The notes under the pieces were generated by a model. That model searched no databases. It was not told where the DNA came from and worked only from the letters and a program-made list of their open reading frames with translations. A stretch of DNA of 22,299 nt, taken from a virus. The stretch lies in the IMG/VR virus record IMGVR_UViG_3300017989_000473, positions 1-22,299 of that record, one strand, 5' to 3'. Positions 1-21,015 of this stretch are shown here, in pieces (the stretch's first letter is position 1; each line of letters begins with the position of its first letter). The position numbers and the translations under genes were made by a program.

Positions 1-900
1 CAAGGCTGGGAACTCATCATTGGCACGCCTAAGGGGCGCGATGCGTTCTATCAAGTGTGGCGAGAAGCGCAGAAACGGCCAGACGATTACTTCTCACTGA
101 TGCTCAAGGCGTCAGAGACGGGCCTGATCCCGGCCGATGAGCTTGCTAAGGCCCGTGAAGCCATGAGCGAGGCCGAATACAACCGGGAATATGAATGCTC
201 GTTCGATGAACCTGGCGTCGCGCAGTTCATCGAATCGAAAGACTGTGATGCGGCGGTGCAGCGTGACGTCGCGCGCGGTCAGCCTGTCGTGATCGGCGTG
301 GACGTCGCGCGGTTTGGTGATGACCAGTCGTGCATTGTGGTCCGGTACGGTGACGCCGTGGTGGACATTCAGCGGTTCCGGGGCCTCGACACAATGCAGT
401 TCGTCGGTCACATCGCGACAGAGGTCGAGCAACACAGTCCGCAACAGGTGTTTGTCGATGGCGTCGGCGTCGGCGGTCCGGTCGTGGATCGTCTGCGCCA
501 GCTGGGTCACAAAGTCGTGGATGTCTCGGCCGGCGCAAAGGCCACCAACGATGCGAGATACTTCAACCTTCGCGCTGAAATGTGGGCACGGATGCGGGAC
601 TGGATCCGATCGCGGGGCATGATTCCACGGGATCAGGGCCTGATTGATGATCTGACGGCGCCGACTTACGAATTCGATCCATCCAACCGCATCAAGCTCG
701 AGAAGAAGGAAGACATGAAGAAGCGCGGCCTGGCATCACCGGATGCGGGCGACGCACTGGCCATGACATTTGCCTATCCGGTGCAGGTCCGGCCCGAGTG
801 GCGCGAACGTGCGGGCGGGGTCATGGTGAAGACCGGCAATCCACGCCTTGACCGCAAACGGAGTGGCAGAACGCGCGGCCCGCGTAGAATATTTGCCTAA
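1..900 (+). CDS. terL: Terminase large subunit, C-terminal part (5' end outside window)
   Basis: The reading frame is open from base 1, so the gene enters from outside; 299 codons plus TAA are visible. The fragment opens with GWELIIGTPKGRDAFYQVW, the stretch that closes the ATPase domain in large terminases. The RNase H-fold nuclease follows, with three acidic motifs: GVDVARFGDD (first Asp at about residue 101 of the fragment), VFVDGVG (Asp about 153) and SPDAGDALAM (Asp about 251). In the family these Asp residues bind the two metals that cut concatemeric DNA, while the missing N-terminal ATPase drives DNA through the portal. The portal gene lies about 1.3 kb downstream. T7 instead keeps its terminase genes at the far end of the morphogenesis cluster, so the order is rearranged here. 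The family call is secure; the true start cannot be seen. Confidence 0.95.
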   Translation, partial: QGWELIIGTPKGRDAFYQVWREAQKRPDDYFSLMLKASETGLIPADELAKAREAMSEAEYNREYECSFDEPGVAQFIESKDCDAAVQRDVARGQPVVIGVDVARFGDDQSCIVVRYGDAVVDIQRFRGLDTMQFVGHIATEVEQHSPQQVFVDGVGVGGPVVDRLRQLGHKVVDVSAGAKATNDARYFNLRAEMWARMRDWIRSRGMIPRDQGLIDDLTAPTYEFDPSNRIKLEKKEDMKKRGLASPDAGDALAMTFAYPVQVRPEWRERAGGVMVKTGNPRLDRKRSGRTRGPRRIFA

Positions 901-938: not shown

Positions 939-1139
939 ATGGAGAATAATATTCCACGCCACGTCTGGATCATCACTGTCGACGGCGCACCCATGGCTCG
1001 CGTCCACGCTGAGACGGATGACGATCGCACCCGCATGGAAGGCCGCGCCAAGATCAAGGCCCGCACTTTTTCTCGCGCCAATCCGGGCGCACAAGTCCAC
1101 ATCGTTCACGAAGACACCAGACAACAGGATGACGCTTGA
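939..1139 (+). CDS. Small hypothetical phage protein (66 aa)
   Basis: No family is recognised. The protein is short, soluble and charged, beginning MENNIPRHVWIITVDG and ending in an acidic/polar tail; there is no signal peptide or membrane segment. The middle, from HVWIITVDG to VHIVHEDT, alternates hydrophobic and polar residues and could form a small alpha/beta fold. The start is the only ATG that fits. A run of eight G (918-925) lies 13 nt upstream and may act as a loose ribosome binding site, but no classical one is present. The stop overlaps the ATG of the next gene by one base (TGATG), so the two are probably co-translated. Its place between terminase and the five small paralogs suggests a packaging or virion accessory role, which is inference only. 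Confidence 0.6.
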   Translation: MENNIPRHVWIITVDGAPMARVHAETDDDRTRMEGRAKIKARTFSRANPGAQVHIVHEDTRQQDDA

Positions 1140-1351
1140 TGGGCATGGGATCTTCAAATCCGTCGGTGCCAAAGGCCGAACCAATCCCGCAGGTGCCGCA
1201 GGAAGACAGCCCGAACACGCTTGAGGTCGAAAAGCAGGCGGCAACGTCGGCCAAGGCCCGCAACGGCGCAACCGCGCATCTGCTCACGCCTGGCAAGGAT
1301 AAGGGCACAAGCTCTCCGATCCAGGGCCAACCGAAACAGTTGATAGGATGA
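1139..1351 (+). CDS. Tandem small virion-type protein, copy 1 of 5 (70 aa)
   Basis: First of five related genes in a row. It starts MGMGSSNPSVPK; a TTG three bases upstream is also possible, but ATG 1139 matches the MG-x-G start of the other copies and sits in a TGATG overlap with the previous gene. A Pro/Glu/Ala-rich, probably disordered middle follows, then ATAHLLTPGKDKG and the terminal QPKQLIG. The HLLTPG...LIG tail matches the other copies. It contains PIQGQ, echoed as PIQGR in copy 3, with a shared 13-nt DNA string. In T7 the equivalent place just upstream of the portal holds small proteins (6.7, 7.3) that are packaged and leave with the DNA. A similar role here is inferred from position and composition, not shown. 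Confidence 0.75.
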   Translation: MGMGSSNPSVPKAEPIPQVPQEDSPNTLEVEKQAATSAKARNGATAHLLTPGKDKGTSSPIQGQPKQLIG

Positions 1352-1355
1352 AAAA

Positions 1356-1598
1356 ATGGGCAAGGGGAGCTCGAAGCCAGCCACACCGGCTGCTGCCGCA
1401 CCACAAGAGCCAAGTGCTACCGTGACAGACGCGGGTGCACCGGACGAGGGCAACAAGGCGATTATGCGCACGGTTGCGACAAACACCAACCCGGCATCGT
1501 CATCGCCTTTGGCTTCGGGCAGCCCGCCCGGCAATGCGCTGCTTGATGATCCGCGCCGCAAGACGCAGCAGGGCGCAACCAACTCACTGCTGGGGTGA
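1356..1598 (+). CDS. Tandem small virion-type protein, copy 2 of 5 (80 aa)
   Basis: Longest of the five copies. It opens MGKGSSKPATPAAAAPQEP, closest in its N-terminus to copy 5 (MGKGSSSKAATPAPAEP). A low-complexity Ala/Pro/Ser/Thr region follows, then GNALLDDPRRKTQQGAT and the terminal NSLLG. The ATG at 1356 lies four bases after the previous stop, and AGGATGA, which spans that stop, serves as a ribosome binding site. No catalytic motif, membrane segment or signal peptide is visible, and the chain is probably disordered apart from its two ends. The shared ends suggest that both termini are functional, for instance as docking signals for packaging or ejection; that is inference. Confidence 0.75.
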   Translation: MGKGSSKPATPAAAAPQEPSATVTDAGAPDEGNKAIMRTVATNTNPASSSPLASGSPPGNALLDDPRRKTQQGATNSLLG

Positions 1599-1602
1599 TC
1601 TG

Positions 1603-1815
1603 ATGGGATTTGGCAAGAAGTCGAGCCCACCGCCCGAGGCGCCCAAGCCCGTGGCGACGGTGCAGAACGAGAACCGACCGGACGATGATCAAAAGCGCGG
1701 TGTGCCGATCCAGGGCCGTGCCAATGAGCAGGTTGCATCGAAGCCGCTGCTGACGCCAGACGCTGGCACAAGTGATGGCGTCGACTACACGAAGCGCAAT
1801 AGGTATCTGTCTTAA
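1603..1815 (+). CDS. Tandem small virion-type protein, copy 3 of 5 (70 aa)
   Basis: The frame is open further upstream, but the ATG at 1603 is chosen because it gives the shared start (MGFGKKSSPPPEAPKP), lies four bases after the previous stop, and has GGGGTGA just upstream. The middle is polar and charged (ENRPDDDQKRG), followed by PIQGRANEQ, then ASKPLLTPDAG and the terminal YTKRNRYLS. This is the only copy that ends in LS rather than IG or LG. Its start is most like copy 4 (MGFGSKKSS), suggesting that 3 and 4 are a recent duplicate pair while 2 and 5 form another. Its TAA overlaps the ATG of copy 4 (TAATG). Function unknown; a virion or ejected role is inferred from context. Confidence 0.75.
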   Translation: MGFGKKSSPPPEAPKPVATVQNENRPDDDQKRGVPIQGRANEQVASKPLLTPDAGTSDGVDYTKRNRYLS

Positions 1816-2015
1816 TGGGATTCGGCAGCAAGAAGTCATCGCAGCCGGCGCAGGCGCCGCGCGATACGCCATCAGCCGACACGTACGCGTCAAAGCCGGC
1901 TGAAGATCCGATCAGCAACCAGATCAACAACCGCCAGCCAACACCGGCCGGCGCAAAGCCTTTGCTTGGGCCGTCGGCATCCGATCCCAAGCAAAAGCAT
2001 TATCTCCTAGGGTGA
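1815..2015 (+). CDS. Tandem small virion-type protein, copy 4 of 5 (66 aa)
   Basis: It starts on the last base of the preceding TAA, so translation is probably coupled. The N-terminus MGFGSKKSSQPAQAPR is nearly that of copy 3. A polar, Asn/Gln/Pro-rich middle leads to AGAKPLLGPSASDPKQ and the terminal KHYLLG, the same LL-x-P...LLG tail as its neighbours. No cysteine, membrane span or enzyme motif is seen. Because only the two ends are conserved among copies while the middle varies in sequence and length, the family looks like a pair of short recognition signals joined by a flexible linker. That reading, and a place in the virion, are inferences. Confidence 0.75.
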   Translation: MGFGSKKSSQPAQAPRDTPSADTYASKPAEDPISNQINNRQPTPAGAKPLLGPSASDPKQKHYLLG

Positions 2016-2020
2016 TCCAT

Positions 2021-2218
2021 ATGGGCAAAGGCAGTTCTTCAAAGGCCGCAACACCGGCCCCGGCTGAGCCCGTGGGTGAGGTCAAAGGCGATCCAAACTA
2101 CAAGCCACCGGTTGAACAGAACCGCACGGAAGGCTCGCCATTGGCCCGTCCGCTGCTCGCCCCCGGTGGCACGTCGACCTACGGCACACAGAAGAAACCG
2201 AATAACCTGATCGGCTGA
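2021..2218 (+). CDS. Tandem small virion-type protein, copy 5 of 5 (65 aa)
   Basis: Last copy before the portal gene. A GTG at 2012 in the same frame overlaps the previous gene, but ATG 2021 gives the shared MGKGSSSKAATPAP start and is preceded at five bases by AGGGTGA, so it is preferred. The central part (KGDPNYKPPVEQNRTEG) is polar. The C-terminus SPLARPLLAPGGTS...KPNNLIG repeats the family tail. T7 protein 7.3, which lies just upstream of the T7 portal gene, also begins MG, is low-complexity and is a small ejected tail-assembly/host-range protein. The likeness is in layout, not in alignable sequence. Confidence 0.75.
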   Translation: MGKGSSSKAATPAPAEPVGEVKGDPNYKPPVEQNRTEGSPLARPLLAPGGTSTYGTQKKPNNLIG

Positions 2219-2223
2219 CGCAC

Positions 2224-3993
2224 TTGCTCCCTCAATCACAGCAGGCCGCACTGCGGTTTGCGCTCAAAGCCAGATCGTCCCGGCAGAATTGGGACACGCT
2301 GTTTGAGCGTCTGGCGCTGATGTTCCTGCCGAACCGCAGTGGCTTCACGTCCGAGCGCACCGACGGCGAGGATCTTGAAGATCACCTGAACTCATCGGCA
2401 CCAGCGTTGGCACGGCGTGGCCTCGCGTCGGCTGTGTCCACGATGCTGCGGCCGGCAGGGCGGCACTGGTTCAGGGGATCCGTAAAGTTTCACGCGCTGA
2501 ACGCTGACGCTTCGGTGCGGCTCTGGCTCGATCAGGTCACGCAGATCATGTTCGATGCGATGTACGATCCGCGGGCGCGGATGGAGCCGAACTTGGCGAT
2601 GTGCGACGACGATTTGGTTACGTTCGGCAACGGCTGCGTGCGCATGGGCTGGGACATTCGCGGCTCGCATTTGCGGTTCCGCACGCGCTCGATGACCAAC
2701 ACGTATTACGTGGTGGATGCCTCGGGCCAAGTGGTGGGCCTGATCACATTTGAGATGTGGACGCTGCGGCAGCTGATCGAGCGGTTTGGCAAAGACAAGC
2801 TCACGAAGCAGATGAAACGCGATCTTGACCAATCCAACCGCGAAAACGGGATGGATAAGGAGTATGAGCTGGTTCACATCGTCGTCCCGGTTTCAGACGC
2901 CAAGGCCATGGGAATGACGGTGCGCAAGCCGTGGTCGTCGCTCTGGATGTCGGTCACGTGCAAGGAATCACTCGAGGCGAAAGGCTTTGATTATTTCCCG
3001 TACCTGACGCCGCGCTGGGACCTGTCGACGGGCGAAACCTACGGCCGATCGCCGGCAATGGTGGCGCTCAAGGATGCACAGCTTCTCCAGGCCATGACCG
3101 AGACGGTCATTGATGCTGGTGAGAAGGCGCTCAACCCGCCGACATGGGGATACGGTGACGCGATCTCTGGTCTTCTCGATCTGTCGGCGGGAGGATTTAC
3201 GCCGGTTGAGGCAAGCTTTCCGGGCAATCAGGCGCCAATCAATCCGATCCAGCTTGGCACGCTCCCGCGCGAGATCTTCGAATTCATCAGCGTGGTCGAG
3301 GAACGGATTTATTCGGCGTTTTATCGGGATATTCTCGAACTGCCGTCGGCGCGGGACAAGGATCTGACGGCCACTGAGATCAACGCACGCCTGGATCAGT
3401 ACATGCGCCAAGCAGCGCCGGTCTTCTCGCGCATTGAGCACAGCTACAACGCTCCGCTGGTCGAGACGGTCTACAAGATCCTCGAGATGAACGGCCAGCT
3501 GCCGCAGAAGCCCGACATGATTCAGATGGCGGAAGAGTACAGCGGCGAAGACGCGATTGAATTCGAGTATGAGAGCCCGATCAAGACGGCGCGCGACAAA
3601 GCCGAAGCGATGAAGATATTCGAAGGCATGCAGATGTTGGCCGGTGGCGCTGCAACGATGGGCGAACAGGCTGTGATGGCGGTGGCTGAAAACTTCAACC
3701 CGGATGCGTTTGCACGCGGCGTCGGTGGCATGAAGCTCGATCTTCCTGAATGGCTGTTTACGCCAATGGAAGAGATGATCGCCATGCGTCAGCAGCGGAT
3801 GCAGGCGGCCGAAGCGCAGATGCAAGCCGACATGATCCAGAAAGTGGCACCGGGTGCGGCACAACTTGGCAAGCTCGTGCCGGAAGCGGCGAAAGCCGGA
3901 CTGATCGATCAGGGACCAGATCAAGCGTTGTTGCCAGCACCCGAAGGCATTCCGTTCGAAGACATCGAAGGTCTAGCCGGAGAGATTTTATGA
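2224..3993 (+). CDS. Portal (head-to-tail connector) protein, T7-like
   Basis: The 589-residue protein fits the podovirus head-tail connector family (T7 gp8-like). It would form the dodecameric ring at one capsid vertex through which DNA enters and leaves and on which the tail is built. Seen in sequence: an N-terminal helical part (residues 1-60), the hallmark LASAVSTMLRPAGRHWFRG near residues 67-85 (family pattern: small residues, L-x-P, then WF), a long mixed core, and a C-terminal Gln/Ala/Met-rich helix (around 515-545) typical of portal crowns. The start is uncertain: TTG 2224 gives MLPQSQQAAL, with CTG 2215 as the alternative. Neither has a clear ribosome binding site, so translation may be coupled to copy 5, which ends six bases upstream. 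The stop overlaps the next gene (ATGA). Confidence 0.92.
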   Translation: MLPQSQQAALRFALKARSSRQNWDTLFERLALMFLPNRSGFTSERTDGEDLEDHLNSSAPALARRGLASAVSTMLRPAGRHWFRGSVKFHALNADASVRLWLDQVTQIMFDAMYDPRARMEPNLAMCDDDLVTFGNGCVRMGWDIRGSHLRFRTRSMTNTYYVVDASGQVVGLITFEMWTLRQLIERFGKDKLTKQMKRDLDQSNRENGMDKEYELVHIVVPVSDAKAMGMTVRKPWSSLWMSVTCKESLEAKGFDYFPYLTPRWDLSTGETYGRSPAMVALKDAQLLQAMTETVIDAGEKALNPPTWGYGDAISGLLDLSAGGFTPVEASFPGNQAPINPIQLGTLPREIFEFISVVEERIYSAFYRDILELPSARDKDLTATEINARLDQYMRQAAPVFSRIEHSYNAPLVETVYKILEMNGQLPQKPDMIQMAEEYSGEDAIEFEYESPIKTARDKAEAMKIFEGMQMLAGGAATMGEQAVMAVAENFNPDAFARGVGGMKLDLPEWLFTPMEEMIAMRQQRMQAAEAQMQADMIQKVAPGAAQLGKLVPEAAKAGLIDQGPDQALLPAPEGIPFEDIEGLAGEIL

Positions 3994-9419: not shown

Positions 9420-12400
9420 GCATCCATCAATGCGCCGATCCTAAGCTTCAAGGGCGGCATTCTCGGCAAGCATCTGTGGGGACGTGTCGACGTTCCGGCC
9501 TATGCCGAATCGGCTGAGATCATGACGAACTGGCGCCCGACGGCGCAAGGCGTCATGACGCGGCGTCCGCCAACGCGCTATGTCGATACAATGCGGGATT
9601 CAACGTCAAAGGCGGTGATCTTCCCGTTCGTGTTCTCGACAACGCAAAGCTACATCGTCACCGCAGACGATAGCTTTTTCCGATTTTATATCAAAGATTC
9701 GCTGCTCACGATCCCGTCGGTGACGACAGAGATTGAAGAGGGCGAGTTCGACACGTTGCATCCCGACCTGGCGGACGGGTCATCGATCACGGCCTCATCT
9801 ACGTCTGCTGGATCGGTTGCGAATCTGGTTGACGAATCCACGTCAAGCTACTGGCAGGCGGGCGGGTCTGCGACGGCAACGCTTGATTTCGACATGACGT
9901 CGGCCGTGACGCTGCGGGATTTGTGGATCTCATCGCCATCCTCGCCGACCAACCGGACGCCAACGGCGTTTACGTTTGCGGGCTCAAGTACAGGCGCATT
10001 CGCGGGCGAAGAGACGACTATTTTGAGCGTGACTGGTGAATCAAACTGGTCCGCGTCTGAGCTGCGCCGGTTCCGTATCACAACGCCTGGATCGTATCGC
10101 TATTATCGGCTCACGATGACGGCGTGCGAAGCCGGCACCGGGTCATATGCGATCTCGGAAATCTCGCTGTACGATAGTCCGTGGTTCGACAATTCGACCG
10201 GCAACGGCGTGATCACGATCACGGCCGGCAAGCTTTACATTGACAGTGATGGCGGCGGGTTCGGGATTGCCGAACAGGTGTTGCCGATCAACGAGGCCAG
10301 CACAGATCACACGCTGGTGTTTGATGTGGTGCACGGCCCGGTCAACTTGCGGATCGGATCAACGTCGGGCGGCGATGACCTGGCGCTGTTTGAAACGCTG
10401 CGCACGGGCCATCATCGGATCAGCTTCAACCCCGGATTGGCGGCCAACGCCTATATCCAGTTTTATCACTCCGCCAATGCGGGTCGCGTGATTGATGGTG
10501 TTCGTATCCTCAAAGCTGGCGCGGTCGGCGAAGCAACGGGCCTGCCATGGCTGACGCGGGCGGTGGCTGATGATGCCGCCCTGCAGGTGCCGCACCCGTA
10601 CAGCGAAACCGAGCTCCCTGAAATCCAATGGCATCAGATTGGTGATGTGCTCTATCTCGCGCACCCGAACCATGAAACGCGGCGGCTCGAGCGCCGCGGT
10701 CACACATCATGGTCATTAACGCGCTCGCGGACCGAAGGCGGTCCGTTCCAGGATGCCAACACCGGGCCGATTTCATTGTCGGGATCGGACACATCTGGCG
10801 AGATCACGCTGACGGCATCGGATGATCTGTTCGTTGATAGCGATGCCGGGCAGCTGATTGCGCTGACGGATGGCGGCCAGTTGAAAACCAAGACCGCAAC
10901 GGCGGTTGCGATCTCAACCGATGGCATCAAGGTCACGGGATCGAGCGGGGCTGCGCGGACGTTCAATATCCAAGTGTCAGGGACGTTTTCGGGCACGGTG
11001 CGTTTGCAGGAAAGCTCGGGCAACGAAAACAACTACGTCGATACCAGCCAGACATATACGGCCGCCACGAATGTCAACTACGACGACAACAAGGACAATC
11101 AGACGTGGTTCTATCGTCTGACCGTGGAGGCGTACACGTCCGGTTCCATCACGATGAAGCTGACCTATTCGGGTGGCTCATCGACGGGAATTGTCCGCAT
11201 CGTCAGCGTGACCAATGCGACGAGCGCCACGGCCGAAGTGATCACGCCGCTGGCGTCGACCGACGCCGTGACGACGTGGAAACGGCAGGAATGGTCGGAT
11301 ACGCTTGGCTGGCCATCGGCCATCACGGGCGGATATGGTCGGTTCTGGTACAGTCGCGGCATTCAGGTCTGGGCGTCGCAATCGGATGACTTCACGAACT
11401 TCGAAGAAGGCGACGAAGACGATGAGGCGTTTTCATGGACGCTGAACCAGGAAAGTTCTGAGGGCATCCGGTTCCTGGATTTCATCGGGCAATTGGTGAT
11501 CGGGACCGCAACGCGCGAGCAGATCGGAACCGGCAACACGCGATCCGAACCTGTTAGCCCGACAAATTTTCAGACGCTGCCAGCGTCAGAGGAGGGATCT
11601 GCGCCGCTCAAGCCGGTTCGTGCGGAAGGCTCGATCATCTATGCGCATCGCTCGCGCAAGAAGCTGATGCAATTCACGCAGACGCCGGGGGCCTTGTCGG
11701 ACAGCTCGTTCACCTCGATTGACCTCTCAGAGCTCGCACCGGAACTTCTGGACGACAAGATTGTCTCGATTGCCATCCAGCGTGAACCGCAACGGCGCAT
11801 TTTTGTGGTGCTCAAATCCGGGCGTATGGGCGAGCTTTTGTTCCGCCGCGAGATCGAGGTGACGGCCTGGAATATCTATGAGACTGACGGCCGCGTTGAG
11901 GATGTGCAAGTCATATCGCAAGAAGACGAGGATCTTGTGTACATGATTGTTCGTCGCAAGATCAACGGACAATGGAAGCGGTTTATCGAGCGCCTGGGGC
12001 GCGAGGATGTCGCGGAAGATTGGGGCCTGTTCCATCTCGACGCGTATCTCAGCCGGGCCATGACGGTGCCTGATACGTTGATTGAGCCGTCTGGTACGAC
12101 TGGCACGATTACGGTTGAGGCCGATGATCCCGTGTTTGTCTCGGGCGATGTCGGATCGATCTTGTGGTTTCCGGTTGGCCGTGGGGAAATCACCGCTGTC
12201 ACGGACGCTTACAACGTGACTGTGCAAGTCAGATCAGATCTTGATGAGGCACGACCCATCCCGTCCGGGCGCTGGGGGTTTGCCACCGAGACGTCGAGTG
12301 TGTCCGGCGCCAATCATCTGGAAGGCGCAACCGTGCGCATCTGTGGCGACATGATGGATCTGGGAACAGCAACGGTCTCGGGCGGCGCTGTGACACTGCC

Positions 12401-12767
12401 GCAGGCGTGCTCGATCGTGCACATCGGGTTGCCGGTCCGGTCGCGCTACAAGTCGTTGAAGCTGGCCTATGGCGCACAGAAGGGTACGGCGATTGGCCAG
12501 CAGAAAGCGATCAAGCAATTGGTGGCGCTGCTCTACCGCACCGGTCCGACGCTGACCTACGGCCGCAACTTCGATGAACTGTACTCCATCGACACGCGCA
12601 CGGATGACGTCCCATGGGATGAGCCTGTGCCTCTTGAGACCAGCGAGAAGGTGTTAGACTTTGATCCTGAGATGCGAACGGACCCTCGCCTCTGCTTCGA
12701 GGTCGACGATCCCCTCCCTGCTACCGTCGTTGGAACCGTCGCAGCCATCCAAACCCACGACCGTTAA
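9417..12767 (+). CDS. Tail tubular protein B (T7 gp12-like) with F5/8C-like domain, CTG start
   Basis: 1116 residues counted from CTG 9417; T7 gp12 is about 794. The family forms the hexameric tail nozzle below the adaptor ring. The N-terminus INAPILSFKGGILGKHLWGR and the following VDVPAY...NWRPTAQGVMTRRPP match the family's opening (S-F-x-G-G, R-x-D, N...G...R-R-P). Residues about 121-254 look like an inserted galactose-binding, discoidin-like domain: ITASSTSAGSVANLVDE, SSYWQAG, then YRYYRLTMTACEAGTGSY and ISEISLYDS. Two related short units, LTASDDLFVDSDAGQL (about 464) and VEADDPVFVSGDVGSI (about 899), are an internal repeat usual in the family. The late part, from RFWYSRGIQVWASQS to VYMIVRRKINGQWKRFIERL, is typical nozzle sequence. 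The 3' end overlaps the next frame by up to 107 bases. Confidence 0.9.
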   Translation: MASINAPILSFKGGILGKHLWGRVDVPAYAESAEIMTNWRPTAQGVMTRRPPTRYVDTMRDSTSKAVIFPFVFSTTQSYIVTADDSFFRFYIKDSLLTIPSVTTEIEEGEFDTLHPDLADGSSITASSTSAGSVANLVDESTSSYWQAGGSATATLDFDMTSAVTLRDLWISSPSSPTNRTPTAFTFAGSSTGAFAGEETTILSVTGESNWSASELRRFRITTPGSYRYYRLTMTACEAGTGSYAISEISLYDSPWFDNSTGNGVITITAGKLYIDSDGGGFGIAEQVLPINEASTDHTLVFDVVHGPVNLRIGSTSGGDDLALFETLRTGHHRISFNPGLAANAYIQFYHSANAGRVIDGVRILKAGAVGEATGLPWLTRAVADDAALQVPHPYSETELPEIQWHQIGDVLYLAHPNHETRRLERRGHTSWSLTRSRTEGGPFQDANTGPISLSGSDTSGEITLTASDDLFVDSDAGQLIALTDGGQLKTKTATAVAISTDGIKVTGSSGAARTFNIQVSGTFSGTVRLQESSGNENNYVDTSQTYTAATNVNYDDNKDNQTWFYRLTVEAYTSGSITMKLTYSGGSSTGIVRIVSVTNATSATAEVITPLASTDAVTTWKRQEWSDTLGWPSAITGGYGRFWYSRGIQVWASQSDDFTNFEEGDEDDEAFSWTLNQESSEGIRFLDFIGQLVIGTATREQIGTGNTRSEPVSPTNFQTLPASEEGSAPLKPVRAEGSIIYAHRSRKKLMQFTQTPGALSDSSFTSIDLSELAPELLDDKIVSIAIQREPQRRIFVVLKSGRMGELLFRREIEVTAWNIYETDGRVEDVQVISQEDEDLVYMIVRRKINGQWKRFIERLGREDVAEDWGLFHLDAYLSRAMTVPDTLIEPSGTTGTITVEADDPVFVSGDVGSILWFPVGRGEITAVTDAYNVTVQVRSDLDEARPIPSGRWGFATETSSVSGANHLEGATVRICGDMMDLGTATVSGGAVTLPQACSIVHIGLPVRSRYKSLKLAYGAQKGTAIGQQKAIKQLVALLYRTGPTLTYGRNFDELYSIDTRTDDVPWDEPVPLETSEKVLDFDPEMRTDPRLCFEVDDPLPATVVGTVAAIQTHDR

Positions 12768-13236
12768 GCGGTTTGATGATCTGTTTCGGTTCGTCGATAT
12801 CCACTTGTTTCCATCGGCGTTTGATCTGGCGGCGCACACATCCGGCCGCAATATGCCGGAGCTGGATTTGATCGTCGGCAACGCCATGGTTGAAAAGGCG
12901 ACGTACATGCCTGTCGGGTTCTGCGTGGCGTATTTCGAGCCATGCGGCACGACCAGCATTCAGGCATCGTTTGCAAACTACTTTCGGACATGGCCCAAGG
13001 ACATCATGCAGGGTATGGCGCCCGTGATCAAACGCATCTTTGATGCCGGCGTGACGGAATTGCACGCCATTGCAGACGAAGAGATTGAGGGGGCGATTGA
13101 TCTGGTGCGCTGGGCGGGCGGCGAAAAAACCGGCGACCGGAGCGATGCGCCACCCATCGGGGATGTCTACCGTATCGATATGAACGGCAAACCAATGCAG
13201 CGCTGGATGGCGCTGGCAGAAAGGGGCAACGGCTGA
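12661..13236 (+). CDS. Internal virion protein A-like, GNAT-fold-like (up to 191 aa)
   Basis: By order (after tubular protein B, before a gp14-like gene) this is the gp13 counterpart. Residues 84-158 look like an acetyltransferase-fold unit: a central PVGFCVAYFEPCGTTS strand pair, a helix around MAPVIKRIFDAG, then ELHAIADEEIEGAIDLVRW, similar to the C-terminal 'I-x-x-x-N-x-x-A-I-x-L' part of GNAT-like DUF2833 phage proteins. Catalytic competence is not implied. The start is uncertain. TTG 12661 has GAAGGTG seven bases upstream but overlaps tubular protein B by 107 bases, and its first 35 residues look like out-of-frame sequence; TTG 12730 is an alternative without a ribosome binding site. Residues from about 36 (VKRFDDLFRFVDIHLFP) are certainly coding. 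The stop overlaps the next ATG. Confidence 0.72.
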   Translation: MILRCERTLASASRSTIPSLLPSLEPSQPSKPTTVKRFDDLFRFVDIHLFPSAFDLAAHTSGRNMPELDLIVGNAMVEKATYMPVGFCVAYFEPCGTTSIQASFANYFRTWPKDIMQGMAPVIKRIFDAGVTELHAIADEEIEGAIDLVRWAGGEKTGDRSDAPPIGDVYRIDMNGKPMQRWMALAERGNG

Positions 13237-13721
13237 TGGCGATGGCGGCTGCAATCGGCCCGATCATCTCTGGTGTTGCGTCGCTGGCGGGGGCCATGGT
13301 GTCGGCAAGTGCAATGAATGCACAAGCCGATCAGGAAGAAGAGATCTCGCGCTGGAATGCACAGCGCCAGCGTGAAAAAGCGGCACTGGCACAGGCCAAG
13401 GGCGCGCAGGAAAGCCGCGTGAAGCAGGAAGAAGGCGACCGTGCGATGGCGACGGCGCGGGCGGCTGCGGCGCAAGGGGGCGGCGCGACTGACACGGGCA
13501 CGCCATTGCTGTTGCAGCAGGAGTTCGCGAAGAACACGTTCTACAATACGGAAGTTGCGATGTTCAACGCCAAGGTCGAGCAAGGCGATTTGAACAACGA
13601 CGCGAAGATCACCGAGTATGAAGGACAGGTCCGCGCGAACGCAACGCGGACGCAGGCCACCGCTTCGCTGATAAGCGGATTTGCTGGGGCGGCGAAGGGC
13701 ATTGCGGGAGCGTTCGGCTGA
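13236..13721 (+). CDS. Internal virion protein B-like (T7 gp14-like, 161 aa)
   Basis: The N-terminus AAAIGPIISGVASLAGAMVS (residues 4-24) and the C-terminus SLISGFAGAAKGIAGAFG are hydrophobic and Gly/Ala-rich. They flank a charged, helical, Gln/Glu/Arg-rich centre (QADQEEEISRWNAQRQREKA) and a GGGATDTGTPLLLQQEFAKN loop. This layout fits T7 gp14 (196 residues), which is released from the virion and placed in the outer membrane at the start of DNA ejection. Position between gp13-like and gp15-like genes supports the call. ATG 13236 overlaps the previous stop (TGATG), as does its own stop with the next ATG, so these ejection genes look translationally coupled. Confidence 0.82.
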   Translation: MAMAAAIGPIISGVASLAGAMVSASAMNAQADQEEEISRWNAQRQREKAALAQAKGAQESRVKQEEGDRAMATARAAAAQGGGATDTGTPLLLQQEFAKNTFYNTEVAMFNAKVEQGDLNNDAKITEYEGQVRANATRTQATASLISGFAGAAKGIAGAFG

Positions 13722-16700
13722 TGGCGCGGATGCCGAAGCCCGACGATTTGGGCGTCAATGCGCTGCGGCCAAGTTTGTCCGCCTCGCAAATCAACATTGG
13801 CGTTGCGGCTAAGACCGGGCAGGCGGGCCGCGCCATGGGGGCCGCGATTGCGGATCTTGGCGGGGCGTTTGGGCAGATTGCCGGACGCTTGCAAGAAGCC
13901 GGCAACGCACAGAACGATGCGCGGTTTCAGATCGAATGGAACAAGGCGCAGACCGACACGTGGAATGACATCAACCAGACGACGCCCGAGGATGGATCAG
14001 GCTGGCAGCAGTTTACGCCACGACTTGAGGCCAAATACAAAGAACTTGATGAGAAGTATCCGGTTTCAGGTCAGAAGCGACGACTGCGCCGTGAGCTTGG
14101 GGCAACAAACGACATTCTGCGCCGGGGCCAGCGGGCGGCGCTTACCATGCAGGACATGGGCCGCAAGCATGCGCTGGGCGTTGAGCAGAAAGAAGTTGGC
14201 GGCATTGTCCAGCAGCTGAACGATGATCCGTCTGATGAGAACTATGAGCGGCTAAAGACATCGGCATTAGATCTGATCGAAAGCGGCCGCGGCACCTACT
14301 ACACTGAAAGCGATATTCAAAGGCGGCGCCGTGAGGTGCTATCGACGCTGGCGCTGACGCGGGCGAACAAGCTGCTCGAGGACGATCCCGAGACCGCGAA
14401 AAAACTGTTTGATGAGGCGCGCAAGCTGAAGCGTGCGGTGCCGATCGAGGAGGACCAGGGCAGCGGGGCGGATTCGTCCAGTGTTAAAAAGTATCTAAAT
14501 AAAAACGCATTGCGTGGATGGGACAAGGTTAATCCCAAAATGCAGGAACGCATTGCGTCTATGCTATCGGATATGCCGGAGCCATTGCGGCAAGGACTGC
14601 TGATTTCCGACACGGCGCGCTCATGGGATCAGCAGGTTGCGGCCGCGCGTCGCCATGGCGTTGATCCGATCAAAGGCAAGCCCGGAACGTTGGCGCCGTG
14701 GGGACGCGGCAGACATCACGGGGATGATGTGCAGGCTGTTGACTTCTACAAGCCTGCGCCGCGCACGCTGGCTTGGATGCGGGAAAATGCGCCAAAATAC
14801 GGCCTGAAGTTTCCGGAGTGGGGGCGCAAAAGCGATCCATGGCATATGGAAATGGATCGCAATTTCAAGGATCGCGAGGGTGAGGCGCCAAGCACTTCGG
14901 ATGGTGTCAGCCAGATTGTCGCGTTTGAGGCCCGACGCGACAAGCAAGGGCGCATTACTGTTTATGAACCGCCGTCAAACGATGGTGGTGGAAAATTCGA
15001 AGTTGCTGGGATTAACGAGCGCCATCATCCAAAGGCTGCCGCAAAGCTGGCGCGGATGGTCAAAGCCGGGAATCATGACGAAGCGGAGCGTTACGCGGAA
15101 GAGTATATTCGAAAATATACAGATAAATCCGCAGCGCTTGTGCCGGGGGATGCTGCTCAATTTGTCGTGCGCGACATGGCATTCAATCGCGGGCCAGGTG
15201 GTGCCAATGCCGCTTTGCGCATGGCAGTCGGTGCAACGCCAAGGTCCAAGGCCGCAGCACATAAAGCGCTGACAGCGGATGAGCGCGCCCGTGTAGAACG
15301 CGCGGCTCAGGAAGATCCGAGCGGATTTATTCAGGCGTTCACGCAGGCCCGCGCCGATTATGAATCGCAATTCGTGGGCAAGCGCGAGAATTTGGCGGTT
15401 GGGCTCAAAAACCGCTGGGCGAAGGCGGAAAGAATTGCGCTTGAAATGGCCAATGGCGGCCAAGGTGCCAGCAGTGAAACTCTGCCCGGTGGCGCTGGCG
15501 AGGATGAAGATGTCAGCGCCGGCAGGGCGGGTCTGACGGCGTTGTTCGGCGACCAGGCCGAACCGATCTTGCGCGCCGTGGAAGACGAGCCAAACGCGCC
15601 GCTGTCGCAGTATCTGGACAAGTCCGAACTGAAGGAACTTTCAAAGCGTATTGGCGCGGACGCATCACAGATGACGGTCAAGGACGCCATGACGGCGGCC
15701 TATGCGATTTCGAAGGCCGACGGCGGACCTGAAAGCGTGATGACTGAACGCGAGCGTGAGTTGATGGCGCTTGCGAAGCAAAACCCAGAGACCAAACTGA
15801 CCGACGTTTTAAGCGACGAAGAGCGCGCGGAGTATACACAGCGGTTCGGGTCGTTGCGCGGTGTCACCGTCGGACAGGCAGCAGAGCGCATTGGGGCCGC
15901 ATCGGAAGAAATCGAAGGCCGCGCCAACGGTGTCGTGAGCCGTGCGGCAATCGCCGAAGAATTCCCGATGGGACGGGTCAACGAAGGCCAAGCCGTCACA
16001 GTTGAATCGCAGCGGCTCGGGCGTATGACGTGGACTGCGGAAGAACTCAACGCCATCTCGCCAAAGCAGTTGCGGTCGCTTGCCAAGTCGGCCGATCGCC
16101 GGTTCCGATCCTTTCAGCGGCAGCAGAGATCAATTGCAAAAGGCATCATGTCCCGGCAATTGCGCTCCGTCGAAGACACGGGCGCATCGGTCAACGACTA
16201 TGATCCCGATTTGATCGGGCGCGTGATGGCGGGCACGCCGGAAGCCAAGGCGTTTAATTGGAACCTTGAGATTGCAAAGCTGGCATTTCGCACAAAGCGC
16301 GAGATGGCCGACTTTGATCGCGAGGATTTGGAAGAGCGCTACGCGGATCTGCGCGAGGCCGTCGAACGGGATGCCGGATACAACCCGACGGCACGGGCCA
16401 TCCTGGGGCGGACTGAAAGCGCGATCAACAAACTGCTGCGTCAACGCGAGCGTGATCCTGCACAAGCGGTGCAACAATCGCGCGAGGTCCAGGCCGTGCG
16501 CAAGGAGTTCAAGATTGGCCGCGAGGGCGTGAAAGACGCCAAGCAGGCGTTTGCGATGGTGGACGCGCGCATGAAGGCGCAAGAGCGTCTTGGCCTCAAG
16601 GTCGTGCCGCTCACAAAGGACGAAGCCGATAGCATCCTTGGCCGTATCAATCAGGTGCCGGCGAACAAACGACGCGAAGCCACCAAACAAGTCTGGGCGA

Positions 16701-16954
16701 AGGTGCAACAGATTTATGGGCGTCACGCGGAGATGGTCATGCGTGCGGCGGTGGATTTGTCCAGGATCGACAAGGAAGACGACCGAACACGCCTGGACCG
16801 TGAAATGCGCCGGTCTCAACGCCGCGCAACTCCGACCATCACGGATGAGAGTGTGATCAATCGCGCAATCAAGGGCGGTCGCGAAGACGTTGAGGAAGAA
16901 GACGTCAAGCCGAACATACCGTTTCTGATGAATCCGCTCGGGCTTCTCAACTGA
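13721..16954 (+). CDS. Internal virion protein C-like with M15 peptidase-like and GH108-like domains (1077 aa)
   Basis: By place it is the T7 gp15 counterpart (747 residues), a helical ejection protein; residues 1-245 and 600-1077 are charged, helical and fit that role. Two extra modules lie between. Residues 285-380 resemble M15 (VanY-type) peptidases: RHHGDDVQAVDFY (331-343) and DPWHMEMD (372-379) supply the His/Asp and His zinc ligands, although His-to-Asp spacing is one longer than the usual H-x-x-G-x-A-x-D. Residues 395-575 resemble GH108-type muramidase plus its peptidoglycan-binding part: VAFEARRD (Glu 403 as likely acid), DGGGKFEVAGIN, then RDMAFNRGPGGANAALRMAVG. Together they would cut peptide and glycan bonds in the wall. 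DNA around 14480-14560 and 14930-15140 looks more AT-rich than its surroundings, hinting at module insertion. T7 places its lytic domain in gp16 instead. Confidence 0.85.
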   Translation: MARMPKPDDLGVNALRPSLSASQINIGVAAKTGQAGRAMGAAIADLGGAFGQIAGRLQEAGNAQNDARFQIEWNKAQTDTWNDINQTTPEDGSGWQQFTPRLEAKYKELDEKYPVSGQKRRLRRELGATNDILRRGQRAALTMQDMGRKHALGVEQKEVGGIVQQLNDDPSDENYERLKTSALDLIESGRGTYYTESDIQRRRREVLSTLALTRANKLLEDDPETAKKLFDEARKLKRAVPIEEDQGSGADSSSVKKYLNKNALRGWDKVNPKMQERIASMLSDMPEPLRQGLLISDTARSWDQQVAAARRHGVDPIKGKPGTLAPWGRGRHHGDDVQAVDFYKPAPRTLAWMRENAPKYGLKFPEWGRKSDPWHMEMDRNFKDREGEAPSTSDGVSQIVAFEARRDKQGRITVYEPPSNDGGGKFEVAGINERHHPKAAAKLARMVKAGNHDEAERYAEEYIRKYTDKSAALVPGDAAQFVVRDMAFNRGPGGANAALRMAVGATPRSKAAAHKALTADERARVERAAQEDPSGFIQAFTQARADYESQFVGKRENLAVGLKNRWAKAERIALEMANGGQGASSETLPGGAGEDEDVSAGRAGLTALFGDQAEPILRAVEDEPNAPLSQYLDKSELKELSKRIGADASQMTVKDAMTAAYAISKADGGPESVMTERERELMALAKQNPETKLTDVLSDEERAEYTQRFGSLRGVTVGQAAERIGAASEEIEGRANGVVSRAAIAEEFPMGRVNEGQAVTVESQRLGRMTWTAEELNAISPKQLRSLAKSADRRFRSFQRQQRSIAKGIMSRQLRSVEDTGASVNDYDPDLIGRVMAGTPEAKAFNWNLEIAKLAFRTKREMADFDREDLEERYADLREAVERDAGYNPTARAILGRTESAINKLLRQRERDPAQAVQQSREVQAVRKEFKIGREGVKDAKQAFAMVDARMKAQERLGLKVVPLTKDEADSILGRINQVPANKRREATKQVWAKVQQIYGRHAEMVMRAAVDLSRIDKEDDRTRLDREMRRSQRRATPTITDESVINRAIKGGREDVEEEDVKPNIPFLMNPLGLLN
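14505..14558. repeat. Twin 11-nt hyphenated palindromes at a module border
   Basis: ACGCATTGCGT occurs at 14505-14515 and 14548-14558, 43 bases apart. The encoded residues are in different frames (N-A-L-R versus R-I-A), so protein constraint does not explain the match. Each copy is a palindrome with five-base arms. They lie just before the M15-like domain in an AT-rich patch. Confidence 0.5.
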
Positions 16955-19900
16955 TGGATGATTTCAAACCAATCGGCCAAAATGTGTACGATGACGACGA
17001 GCGCCCGTCGGGTCTGATTGGTCAGTCCGGGTCCATGGCCTCGTTCCTGCGGGATTACGAGGTCGAGGAAACGCCGACGACAACTGTCATCGAAAAGAAC
17101 TCGTTTGCGGCGCCGCGGGCCGATCAGGTTGAATACCTCAAAGCCTATCCCGATACCGCATCGGACTTTGATGGCCGGTTCGGGCCGGGTGCGGCGGCCA
17201 AGGCATTGGGCACGCCGAAGGTTGTCGAAGATGCCGACAAGATGCAGGTGGTGCAATCCCCGATCACCGGGCTGGATGTGCTTGCCCGTGTTGGCGCCGA
17301 TGATGGTGTGCCGGCGATCCTCGATGGCTATCTGACCAGCCAGCGCCTTGCCGAAGAGACCACGGAAGATGTGGCCCGCACCAACAGCCTCAAGGCGGTC
17401 TGGGATCAGGGCGCGAGTGACAAGGCCGCGTCGTGGATCGACGGGGAGGTTGAGAGCGCGGCGAAGTCGGTTGCAGCGCTCGAAGCGGACGCCAAGCGTG
17501 GCCCGATTACTTTGGATGCTCAAAACCGGTTGGATACGGCGCGGGCGCGGCTCAAGGCGGCGCAAGATGTGAAGGCTGATGCGGCGGCCGGCGAACGTCA
17601 AATGACGCCCAAAGAGCGCGTGATGATGGCGATGTTGATTGAAGCGCAGTCGGGCGTGATCGACAAGGCGGTCCGTGAGCTCCAGCAGTTTGATTCAGAT
17701 CCTGAATACCGAAAAGACCTGATGGCGCGGAGCGCGTCTGCGGGCCTTGATGAGGCGCGCTGGAACAAGGATGTTCGCGAGATCCTTGCCAAGCGTGTCA
17801 ACGAGGCGGTGCGGCGCCGGGATCTGTTGCGCCAGGCTCTGAGCCAGGGCCGCATGCGCGGCGCCATGACGGACGCCACCGCAATCGGTGAGTTTGTGCG
17901 GTCGTATGCGCGCGGCATTGCGCAAGCCACCGGCATCATGGGTGGGGCGCTGAACCAGTGGGCGGAAAGTCTTGAAGGTGAAGCGGGTCTAGGCGATGCG
18001 CTCAAGAGCTGGTCGAACAAAATCATTGAGGATATCCCGGCTGAGGCTGCGCCAGAACTCTTGAAAATCCAGTCGGCGCGCGATGTGTCGCTGTGGTTTT
18101 CCTCAAAGCTTGGCCAGGCTTTCGGCACGACGTTGCCGATCGTTGCAAGTGCGATAGCGGCTGGTCCGACTGCTGGTGTGACGGCGGGCCTTGCCATGGG
18201 CCAGGGCGAAATGCGCAACACGCTGGAAGATGCGCTGTTGGCGGAAGGTGTCGAGATCTCCAAATCGGAGATGCAGCGGATCGTGATGACATATGGCACG
18301 ATCATTGGCGGTCTGGATGCCATTGTGCCGGTTCTGATCTCGCGCTCTGGCCTTCGCATGATCTTGACGACCAGCGCCAAGCGGGCGGCGCAAGTCGGGA
18401 TTGCACGTCAGTTGGCCGTGGCTGTGGCGCGGGACAGCACGATCGAAGGCGCAACGGAAGCTGCGCAAGAGTTCCTGCTGGAATGGGGCACGGCTGATGC
18501 CCTGGACCGCGGCATTGATTTTGAGGCGTTCGCGCCCAAGGCGATCGAAGCCTTCGCAGCAGGCTTTGCAGGTGGTGTTGGGTTTACGACCGTTGGCATT
18601 CCGGGTGAATACTCTCAGATCATGCGGCGGCGCCGTGACGAAGCGCTGGAAGCGGCTGAGAAAATCCGCACTGAGATCGAAGCACAGACGCCGGCCAAGC
18701 CAGATGCGGGTGATGCGGGTGGCGGCATGGCTGTGCCAACCGAGGCCCCAGGCACGAATGAGGTCGTGACATCACGGCCGCCAAGCGATCCAACCGCAGA
18801 AGCGCCGAAGATCCCCGATCGGCCAAAGATCATTGCCAAGCCGCGGACGCCAATTCCTGAATCAAAGCCGGTTGAGCGTCCAAAGGCGCCAGACCGGCCG
18901 CAGACGGCCATTGAATACATTCGCGAGCGTGGCGGGATTATCGACGAAGGCGGCGATCTTGCCGCCATGGACGCACCGCGCGGCGTGATTGCCGACAATG
19001 GGCAAGGGTTGAGCCCGGACGCTATGCGCGAAAGTCTGGTGCAGGCGGGCTATCTGCCAACGCCCGCGGAAGGCGAGCAGGAGTTTACAACCGCTGATGA
19101 TGTCTATGACATCGTGCAGCGCTCGCTCGCGGGCGAACGTGTTGTTGCGATTGGCCGCGAGGCCGATGAAGCCACGTATCAGGATTATCGAAAGAGCGGC
19201 AATCTGGATGAGCAATCCAATGAGATCCTGAACGATCTGCGCGACAGTCTGGGCGAGTACGGTATTGCGTATGATCTGACTGAGATCGAAGAGCAGCGCG
19301 TTGTCGATCTGGTCCGTAACGAGGGCCTGACCCCGGATGATGCGTTCGAGCGCAATGCCATCATGCGCGGGTCTGGCGCGGCTGAAGTTCGCGCGAACGA
19401 GCCGGGTCAAGCGGATGTGCCGTTTCCGCCAATGTCGGGTGGGCGCGGTGTGAGCCAGCCGGGCGCGGTTGATATTGCATCGCGCCTGCCGCAGCTTCGC
19501 GCTTATCTCAAGGGGGGCGGCTCACTGTCGCGCAAGGCGTATCGCCAGATTGCGCAATCGACGGGCGTTCCGCAGAGCCAGGTTCGCGAGTTCCTTGAGG
19601 CGGCGGAAGATGCGGGCATTGTGAAGCGGGATCGCCGCGGTGCGTTCCGTCGAGACCAGGTTGATGATCCGAACGTGGTCGAGATTGACGTCTTCGACGA
19701 TCTGCCATCCGAGGACAAAGAACAACCGAAGTCCGTTTCAATTGACGATTTTATTTCTGATGTTGAGCGGCTGAAAGAAAAGTTCGGAGCGCCCGAGAAA
19801 GAGACGATTGAGGCTCAAGATATTGAGCCGATCAACGTTGATGTGAAGTTCGCAATTGGCGGCGGACTGACTGTCAAGGTGACAGACGCGGGGCCGCTGT

Positions 19901-21015
19901 TGGAGCGCATTGCGGATGACCTGCGCTCCTTCCAATCGGAATCAAATGAAACACTTGCTGTGCTCGAGCGCATGCAGGACGTCGAGATTGAAGGCTCTAG
20001 TGCGGAAGACTTAGCACGCCTTCGAACGGCTCTTGTCGATCTCCAGAAGATTGTTCAGGACAGATTGCAGGCATCTTACGCGCTCTCAGATCAAATTTAT
20101 ACGTTTGAAAATGATCTGCAAACGCGCTTCCAAGATGCTGTCAATCGAATTGAGTCTGTCGAGGACAGGGCGGACACCTTAACGTCGGAGATAGTTGATC
20201 TATTTGATAGGATTGAGGGTGAGCTGGAATCGCGTGGCGTTGATCTCAACGACGAGTCACGAGAAAAGTATGACGGATCCGGGCAGCAGCTTATTGCGCC
20301 GTATGTTGACGAGGACGTTGATCAGAGCAAGACGCTTATTGAGCTATTCGAAGAAAAAGCGAAATCTCTAGAAAAGAGCGGAGCGAGTTTCGATAAGATT
20401 GAAAGGCTGTTGTCGTCTGAGCCTGACCTTGAGGCAATGAGCATTGATGAATTGGAATCAATGCTTGATACGTTGAATGAGGCGCAGGGTGCGCTTCTGA
20501 CACGACTTGATGTCTCAAGGTTCTATCTCAAGTATTACAATGAAGAGGGCTTTGATAAAATTGGAGAGCGGTTTGATGAAATCCGAAAGGATATCATTGA
20601 GCCAGCCACTGAGCGTCTGGAGGACGGCGCAGACGAGATCGAAAGCTTTATAGCGGATGTTGACGAGCTTGCGTCTGGATCACCGCAACTCGCCTCGGCC
20701 GCCCAAACCCAGAACACCATGACGCGCATGGTGCAAAGCCAATTGCGCTCGGGCAAGACGGTTCGGATATCGGATCGCACGATCGACAGGGTGCGCAACG
20801 CTCTGGCGCCGATGTTGCATCACATTCCGTCGGATGCGCAGGTGGCGGTCATCCAGACAATCAAGCCGAGCCCTCTGGTCAAGAAGACGGACCGCGTTGA
20901 TCTTGAGATGCTGGACCTTCGGACGGGGGAGTCATTCTCCCTTGTCGACGTCCCCTTCACCGTCCGCGAGATCGCGAACGTCCGCGCGGTCCACGTCCCA
21001 TCCGGGTCGGCATAG
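16954..21015 (+). CDS. Internal virion protein D-like / giant ejection protein, first part (1353 aa, ends at amber)
   Basis: Position and size match T7 gp16 (1318 residues), which spans the envelope during DNA ejection. Segments: 1-300, charged helical; 384-418, 442-463 and 525-550, hydrophobic Gly/Ala-rich stretches (e.g. GTTLPIVASAIAAGPTAGVT), with the gp16-like STIEGATEAAQEFLLEW at 495-511; 575-650, Pro-rich linker; 652-735, a unit reading IEYIRERGGIIDEGGDLAA that recurs in large phage and prophage proteins; 839-895, winged-helix-like (SLSRKAYRQIAQSTGVPQSQ); 929-1246, acidic coiled coil in visibly less GC-rich DNA; 1247-1353, return to GC-rich sequence. It starts at ATG 16954 in a TGATG overlap. 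The frame continues past TAG 21013-21015 with no further stop for over 900 bases, so this may be only the front part of a longer protein. Confidence 0.85.
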   Translation: MDDFKPIGQNVYDDDERPSGLIGQSGSMASFLRDYEVEETPTTTVIEKNSFAAPRADQVEYLKAYPDTASDFDGRFGPGAAAKALGTPKVVEDADKMQVVQSPITGLDVLARVGADDGVPAILDGYLTSQRLAEETTEDVARTNSLKAVWDQGASDKAASWIDGEVESAAKSVAALEADAKRGPITLDAQNRLDTARARLKAAQDVKADAAAGERQMTPKERVMMAMLIEAQSGVIDKAVRELQQFDSDPEYRKDLMARSASAGLDEARWNKDVREILAKRVNEAVRRRDLLRQALSQGRMRGAMTDATAIGEFVRSYARGIAQATGIMGGALNQWAESLEGEAGLGDALKSWSNKIIEDIPAEAAPELLKIQSARDVSLWFSSKLGQAFGTTLPIVASAIAAGPTAGVTAGLAMGQGEMRNTLEDALLAEGVEISKSEMQRIVMTYGTIIGGLDAIVPVLISRSGLRMILTTSAKRAAQVGIARQLAVAVARDSTIEGATEAAQEFLLEWGTADALDRGIDFEAFAPKAIEAFAAGFAGGVGFTTVGIPGEYSQIMRRRRDEALEAAEKIRTEIEAQTPAKPDAGDAGGGMAVPTEAPGTNEVVTSRPPSDPTAEAPKIPDRPKIIAKPRTPIPESKPVERPKAPDRPQTAIEYIRERGGIIDEGGDLAAMDAPRGVIADNGQGLSPDAMRESLVQAGYLPTPAEGEQEFTTADDVYDIVQRSLAGERVVAIGREADEATYQDYRKSGNLDEQSNEILNDLRDSLGEYGIAYDLTEIEEQRVVDLVRNEGLTPDDAFERNAIMRGSGAAEVRANEPGQADVPFPPMSGGRGVSQPGAVDIASRLPQLRAYLKGGGSLSRKAYRQIAQSTGVPQSQVREFLEAAEDAGIVKRDRRGAFRRDQVDDPNVVEIDVFDDLPSEDKEQPKSVSIDDFISDVERLKEKFGAPEKETIEAQDIEPINVDVKFAIGGGLTVKVTDAGPLLERIADDLRSFQSESNETLAVLERMQDVEIEGSSAEDLARLRTALVDLQKIVQDRLQASYALSDQIYTFENDLQTRFQDAVNRIESVEDRADTLTSEIVDLFDRIEGELESRGVDLNDESREKYDGSGQQLIAPYVDEDVDQSKTLIELFEEKAKSLEKSGASFDKIERLLSSEPDLEAMSIDELESMLDTLNEAQGALLTRLDVSRFYLKYYNEEGFDKIGERFDEIRKDIIEPATERLEDGADEIESFIADVDELASGSPQLASAAQTQNTMTRMVQSQLRSGKTVRISDRTIDRVRNALAPMLHHIPSDAQVAVIQTIKPSPLVKKTDRVDLEMLDLRTGESFSLVDVPFTVREIANVRAVHVPSGSA
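21013..21015 (+). other. In-frame amber codon splitting one long frame
   Basis: The TAG ends the 1353-residue frame, but the same frame continues as SRNGAIVYAPLTLAGVPDHS into the HETVH domain. No convincing start or ribosome binding site lies just after it. TAG also ends five ordinary genes here (4220, 5554, 7531, 8806, 9412), so it is a normal stop in this phage. Confidence 0.8.

Follow-up and report, generated by a model that had tools for sequence, protein, structure and literature searches.

A tandem array of five diverged small genes upstream of a podophage portal, a candidate expanded set of portal adaptors

The DNA analyzed here (the window) is a 22.3 kb IMG/VR virus record (IMGVR_UViG_3300017989_000473, 22,299 nucleotides) from a podophage that encodes a terminase large subunit (TerL), a Head-tail_con portal, a capsid protein and an internal virion protein. 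The slot between TerL and the portal is bordered on the left by the C-terminal part of TerL (55–900, plus strand; phrog_2, 6.8e-23) and on the right by the portal, or head-tail connector (2224–3993, plus strand; PF12236, E 5.6e-76). It holds a 66-residue open reading frame (939–1139) followed by five short plus-strand genes, c1 to c5 (1139–2218): c1 (1139–1351, 70 residues), c2 (1356–1598, 80 residues), c3 (1603–1815, 70 residues), c4 (1815–2015, 66 residues), whose own ATG overlaps the c3 stop, and c5 (2021–2218, 65 residues), directly before the portal. Neighboring genes either share a single base (TGATG, TAATG) or are separated by 4–5 bases, and a purine-rich site lies 5' of each start, within the end of the preceding gene. 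The five reading frames are translationally coupled, and the portal that follows them is of T7 type. A second contig, found in a different metagenome (L002/L013), retains every one of them, and their products are rich in proline, serine, alanine and charged residues.

Farther along the record lies the gene of the internal virion protein (13236–13721, plus strand; phrog_418, 2.4e-14), gp14-type by position and family label. After it come two very large proteins (13721–16954, 1077 residues; 16954–21015, 1353 residues) for which a Pfam scan gave no match above cut-off, and which sit like gp15 and gp16 in the T7 gene order. In the product of 9522–12767 (1081 residues), an F5/8 type C domain just reaches the Pfam cut-off (PF00754, 2.3e-6), and 21046–21963 has a weak match to ART-PolyVal (ADP-ribosyltransferase of polyvalent proteins; 6.4e-4, below cut-off).

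Judged by their sequences, the five genes are one family of diverged tandem paralogs. The original prediction of a five-copy array of one small-protein family is borne out by shuffle tests, in which mutual similarity exceeded that expected from composition: summed local scores among the copies reached z 12.2 (0 of 400 residue shuffles as high) and summed global scores z 16.5 (0 of 400), with each of the ten pairs above all 400 shuffles. When 6 N-terminal and 3 C-terminal residues were trimmed, the sum stood at z 3.4 (0 of 400 shuffles as high) and only some single pairs stayed above all shuffles. As for the predicted end motifs, the MG-x-G start is present in all five copies, LL-x-P in four (c2, whose C-terminal motif, LLDDP..LLG, is the most divergent of the five, has LLDDP) and a terminal L[I/L]G likewise in four (c3 ends YLS). 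The two sub-pairs proposed with them fared differently. Copies c3 and c4, which are each other's clear partners (local z 7.8; a 31-nt DNA repeat at 71%; c3 is nearest to c4), form the one clear sub-pair; the pairing of c2 with c5 (z 3.2) does not hold up, c2 matching c1, c3 and c4 equally well or better.

Small portal-upstream proteins are already widespread in podophages, and the five-copy array is the largest set that we have seen. Proteins with a proline-rich start and an end of the type ..STILTG..G....KTLLGQ occupy the TerL-portal slot in relatives, one to three per phage, starting with M[G/C] and ending in ..KTLLG (the LLG group). Two each are held by HTVC010P, Skadi and a Manatee Spring phage; further holders are BcepC6B, Carin-1, Vibrio 1.185, Tr60_Ab31, epsilon15 (gp3), BPP-1 (Bbp22), Reyranella prophages and many IMG/VR contigs. 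In phiVC8 nothing lies between TerL and the portal, and in BPP-1 the slot also holds an accessory gene, a GNAT. A literature search on PHROG 831 and on epsilon15 and gp6.7 brought up no study of what the LLG group does.

These relatives often carry two or three members in tandem, alike at the ends and different in the middle, for example three in L260, L263, L244, L092 and L099 and two in L250, L251, L259 and L266; in L260 and L263 the end of the third is weaker (TMVGNR, TMVSR). The relatives with the nearest portals (the L041 group) carry one to three tandem paralogs of the MGKF...TLLG type. The proposed pattern of same ends and different middle recurs in independent arrays (L260, L263, L250, L259), and the expected arrays beside portals are common, at one to three copies. 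Under a single rule applied to 281 sequences, which scanned each whole locus for LLG-ended reading frames, beyond the portal slot too, none of the 274 sequences outside the window's own phage had at least four clustered LLG-ended small reading frames and 21 of 274 had three; the window's phage scores four by this rule and has five, the uncounted copy being the one that ends YLS. An automatic rule that errs both ways, applied to 32 complete, non-redundant slots (that of the window among them), placed at least one candidate slot protein in 22. Another automatic count finds only two of the five window copies, overlooks L237 and L010 among others, and includes doubtful reading frames such as those of L177 and L011; the maximum of three copies outside the window's phage is therefore based on the locus listings and on the 281-sequence rule. 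Tandem copy number among relatives ranges from zero to three.

Membership of the window copies in this wider group was assessed in several ways. They are small genes between TerL and a Head-tail_con portal, with the M[G/C] start in all five and the [L/I/M][L/I]G end in all except c3. PHROG and Pfam profile scans of c1–c5 gave no match even at E 10, including to PHROG_831, the profile that epsilon15 gp3 matches at 6e-34. Window copies scored no better than their own shuffles against a C-terminal HMM built from 34 relatives, a PDB search with the family profile returned chance matches only, and hhalign with the first small alignments aligned just 5 columns. End-anchored alignment against 17 LLG representatives gave z 4.9, 2.3, 4.0, 3.0 and 3.2 for c1 to c5, compared with −1.7 to 2.15 for 17 control proteins; since one control, the ICP3 6.5 protein, came out at z 2.15 to 3.2, a single z near 2–3 is not decisive. 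With shuffles that preserve local composition (blocks of 10), the window copies again stood above the controls (Mann-Whitney p 4.6e-4), and hhalign of seven window and sibling copies against 20 family members gave P 2.5e-4, with LL-x-P..LLG in register on ILTG..LLG. Weighing the profile negatives together with the end-anchored and hhalign signals, we treat c1–c5 as a putative diverged branch of the wider LLG-tail portal-upstream group, outside PHROG_831.

The AlphaFold2 (AF2) model of c4 has no secondary structure (pLDDT 61, pTM 0.11), as predicted for an extended or disordered peptide. The window portal was modeled at pLDDT 80; its best PDB match is the Carin1 portal (8ck0, E 3.9e-26), with T7 (9jyz) fourth, and the model has a long C-terminal helix (515–548) followed by a low-confidence tail.

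The slot had been likened to that of T7, and rightly so: the genes of gp6.7 and gp7.3 sit upstream of the T7 portal. In the published structure of T7, 12 copies of gp6.7 are present, with loop I (residues 2–15) encircling the portal barrel, loop II touching gp15 and residues 34–50 lying on gp15, and the protein is used again in the ejected channel (PMC11784390). Against the LLG family, eight of eight gp6.7 proteins gave z 2.3–4.9 in end-anchored alignment, the signal falling mostly within the first 25 residues, where gp6.7 docks on the barrel. At the profile level, gp6.7 against the family gave P 0.0067 over 10 residues only, the direct comparison with the window copies was weak (P 0.05), and the gp6.7 profiles PF17570 and phrog_1391 had no match to the window copies. 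T7 gp6.7 thus appears to resemble the wider LLG group weakly, at the N-terminus. The N-termini of epsilon15 gp3/PHROG_831 and T7 gp6.7 are alike (MC..KP..P; L225 3037–3243, L175 565–831), a possible family link so far unrecognized.

In Vibrio phage Peru-2, a small protein of this position was found in virions by mass spectrometry, at low abundance (PMC13320782). From this observation, the gp6.7 structure, the N-terminal likeness, the slot and the predicted disorder, we infer two-ended portal adaptors. The array may accordingly be described as a candidate expanded gp6.7-like set of such adaptors, tandem paralogs of the small portal-upstream protein found in many T7/epsilon15/HTVC010P-type podophages, a reading to which we give about an even chance. 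A gp7.3-type function is unlikely, though it fares best among the alternatives: c1–c5 would be assembly factors in the tail channel, or would act in fitting the nozzle to the adaptor, docking by their C-termini. The T7 gp7.3 gene is also just upstream of the portal, its C-terminal loop (84–98) anchors to the nozzle (PMC11784390), and the C-terminus is well conserved in the LLG family; however, gp7.3 is unlike that family (z −0.6; 1.8 for the ICP3 homolog) and does not resemble the window copies either (z 0.4–1.1), which its profiles PF11653 and phrog_1320 also fail to match. We rejected gp7.3 as a homolog.

Conservation of the LLG end could in part have another source. Copies c1, c2 and c4 end in GGA/GGG-TGA a few bases 5' of the next ATG, and the terminal glycine of LLG is encoded by GGA or GGG in 24 of 41 family cases, as against 519 of 1770 portal glycine codons (Fisher 1.1e-4). 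This bias implies that, in many cases, the terminal glycine codon also serves the next gene as its likely ribosome-binding site; likely Shine-Dalgarno sites lie in the gene ends at 1342–1351, 1590–1598 and 2007–2015, and in family ends. Some of the LLG conservation may therefore operate at the DNA level. That the end is mainly a DNA signal, its codons serving as the Shine-Dalgarno sequence of the next coupled gene in otherwise unrelated small late proteins, is very improbable. The other 17 of the 41 family members retain LLG while using GGC or GGT, epsilon15 gp3 and Carin-1 among them, so the protein motif is more than just a ribosome-binding signal, and conservation extends to the K-[T/S]-L-L context and to the N-terminus. 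The array does suggest how a translation-coupled unit with its ribosome-binding site inside the last codons of the preceding gene could multiply in tandem, each unit bearing the start signal of the next.

Comparison with the sibling contig L013, from another sample, bears on whether the genes are translated and on how freely they vary. Over 10.36 kb the two sequences show 50 differences, 44 of which are concentrated in the 383 bp of 1340–1722 (a patch assigned to neither strand), that is, in c2 and c3 (binomial 1e-56). The two genomes are otherwise nearly identical, and the patch has the look of an allele exchange rather than of clonal drift. There are 11 synonymous and 7 nonsynonymous codon differences in c2 and 12 and 2 in c3, whereas c1, c4 and c5 together have 3 synonymous and no amino-acid changes, c5 being identical. 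For c2 and c3 combined, the 23 synonymous and 9 nonsynonymous codons fall on about 115 and 335 sites, respectively (Fisher 1.4e-8), and in their middles alone there are 9 synonymous and 2 amino-acid changes. This synonymous excess indicates that the genes are translated and that each middle is constrained, and it rules out a non-coding explanation of the array; purifying selection acts on c2 and c3, middles included. The N-terminus of c2 is not invariant, as three of its nonsynonymous changes lie within the first 16 residues. The original prediction of conserved termini on a disordered linker free to vary therefore stands in part: the termini are conserved and the proteins extended or disordered in prediction, but within c2 and c3 the middle is not free.

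The same data make it hard to regard c1–c5 as accessory peptides of a late operon, acting in host takeover, anti-defense or host range, with the c2–c3 patch as strain adaptation. Such a role would suit the clustering of strain differences in c2 and c3 and a slot that holds accessory genes in relatives, as with the BPP-1 GNAT, but pN is far below pS within the patch and a slot protein with the same ends is widespread across unrelated hosts, and we consider it highly doubtful. Equally improbable are redundant copies that have drifted since duplication with no division of labor, which the zero-to-three tandem copy number among relatives would allow, but against which stand five open reading frames in both contigs and the purifying selection on c2 and c3.

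The portal-adaptor reading treats each copy as a mostly unfolded, extended chain that carries a short motif at either end and a middle specific to it. Docking on the outer face of the 12-fold portal barrel would fall to the N-terminal MG-x-G-[S/K]..P segment, just as residues 2–15 of gp6.7 dock there, the portal being the presumed docking partner. Partners of the middle and of the C-terminal LL-x-P...L[I/L]G segment would be internal core or ejection proteins, with the gp14-type internal virion protein as a candidate core partner, or the neighboring ring. The peptides would thereby bridge rings of unlike symmetry and depart with the core at infection, and the five paralogs would form a mixed adaptor set, each with its own partner, in place of a single adaptor in every position. 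Virion location, portal docking, ejection and division of labor are thus our inferences for c1–c5. A more specific and rather improbable version is that duplication made a heteromeric ring, in which the five paralogs share the 12 barrel sites through a common N-terminal dock while their middles bind different core partners, so that the symmetry mismatch is met by specialized subunits, and that epsilon15 gp3, the LLG group and gp6.7 are one ancient adaptor family.

If PHROG_831-type proteins, which lie beside the portal in many podophages, were gp6.7-type adaptors, a large annotation gap would be closed. Phages whose copy number runs from one to five would then offer natural variants for studying how cores of other symmetry attach to a 12-fold portal.

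Among known systems, T7 gp7.3 is likewise small and late, is encoded upstream of the portal and has a C-terminal loop that is anchored, but it differs in sequence and has a basic N-terminus. T7 gp6.7 shares with the array its small size, its extended form, its position upstream of the portal and an N-terminus resembling the LLG group, and its structure shows it to be an adaptor between portal barrel and core (PMC11784390); it differs in being a single copy of 88 residues, with a different C-terminus in most homologs. Epsilon15 gp3 and PHROG_831 proteins occupy the TerL-portal slot, are 65–80 residues long and rich in proline, alanine and serine, as the window copies are, and have an M[C/G]..GS.PSVP start and an LLTG...KTLLGQ end. 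End-anchored global alignment of epsilon15 gp3 with c1 to c5 gave z 6.3, 3.6, 4.8, 2.6 and 3.4, values slightly inflated because the start methionine was shuffled too, with c1 the best match of the five (0 of 300 shuffles as high). Epsilon15 gp3 is, however, a single copy with an arginine-rich segment and an STLLTG box that are absent from the window copies, and the PHROG_831 profile fails to match the latter. The tandem MGKF...TLLG sets of L250, L259, L260 and L263 belong to a group of phages whose portals are about 24–29% identical to that of the window; these sets have three copies at most and are otherwise diverged in sequence, but they place two or three paralogs with shared ends and different middles in the same slot.
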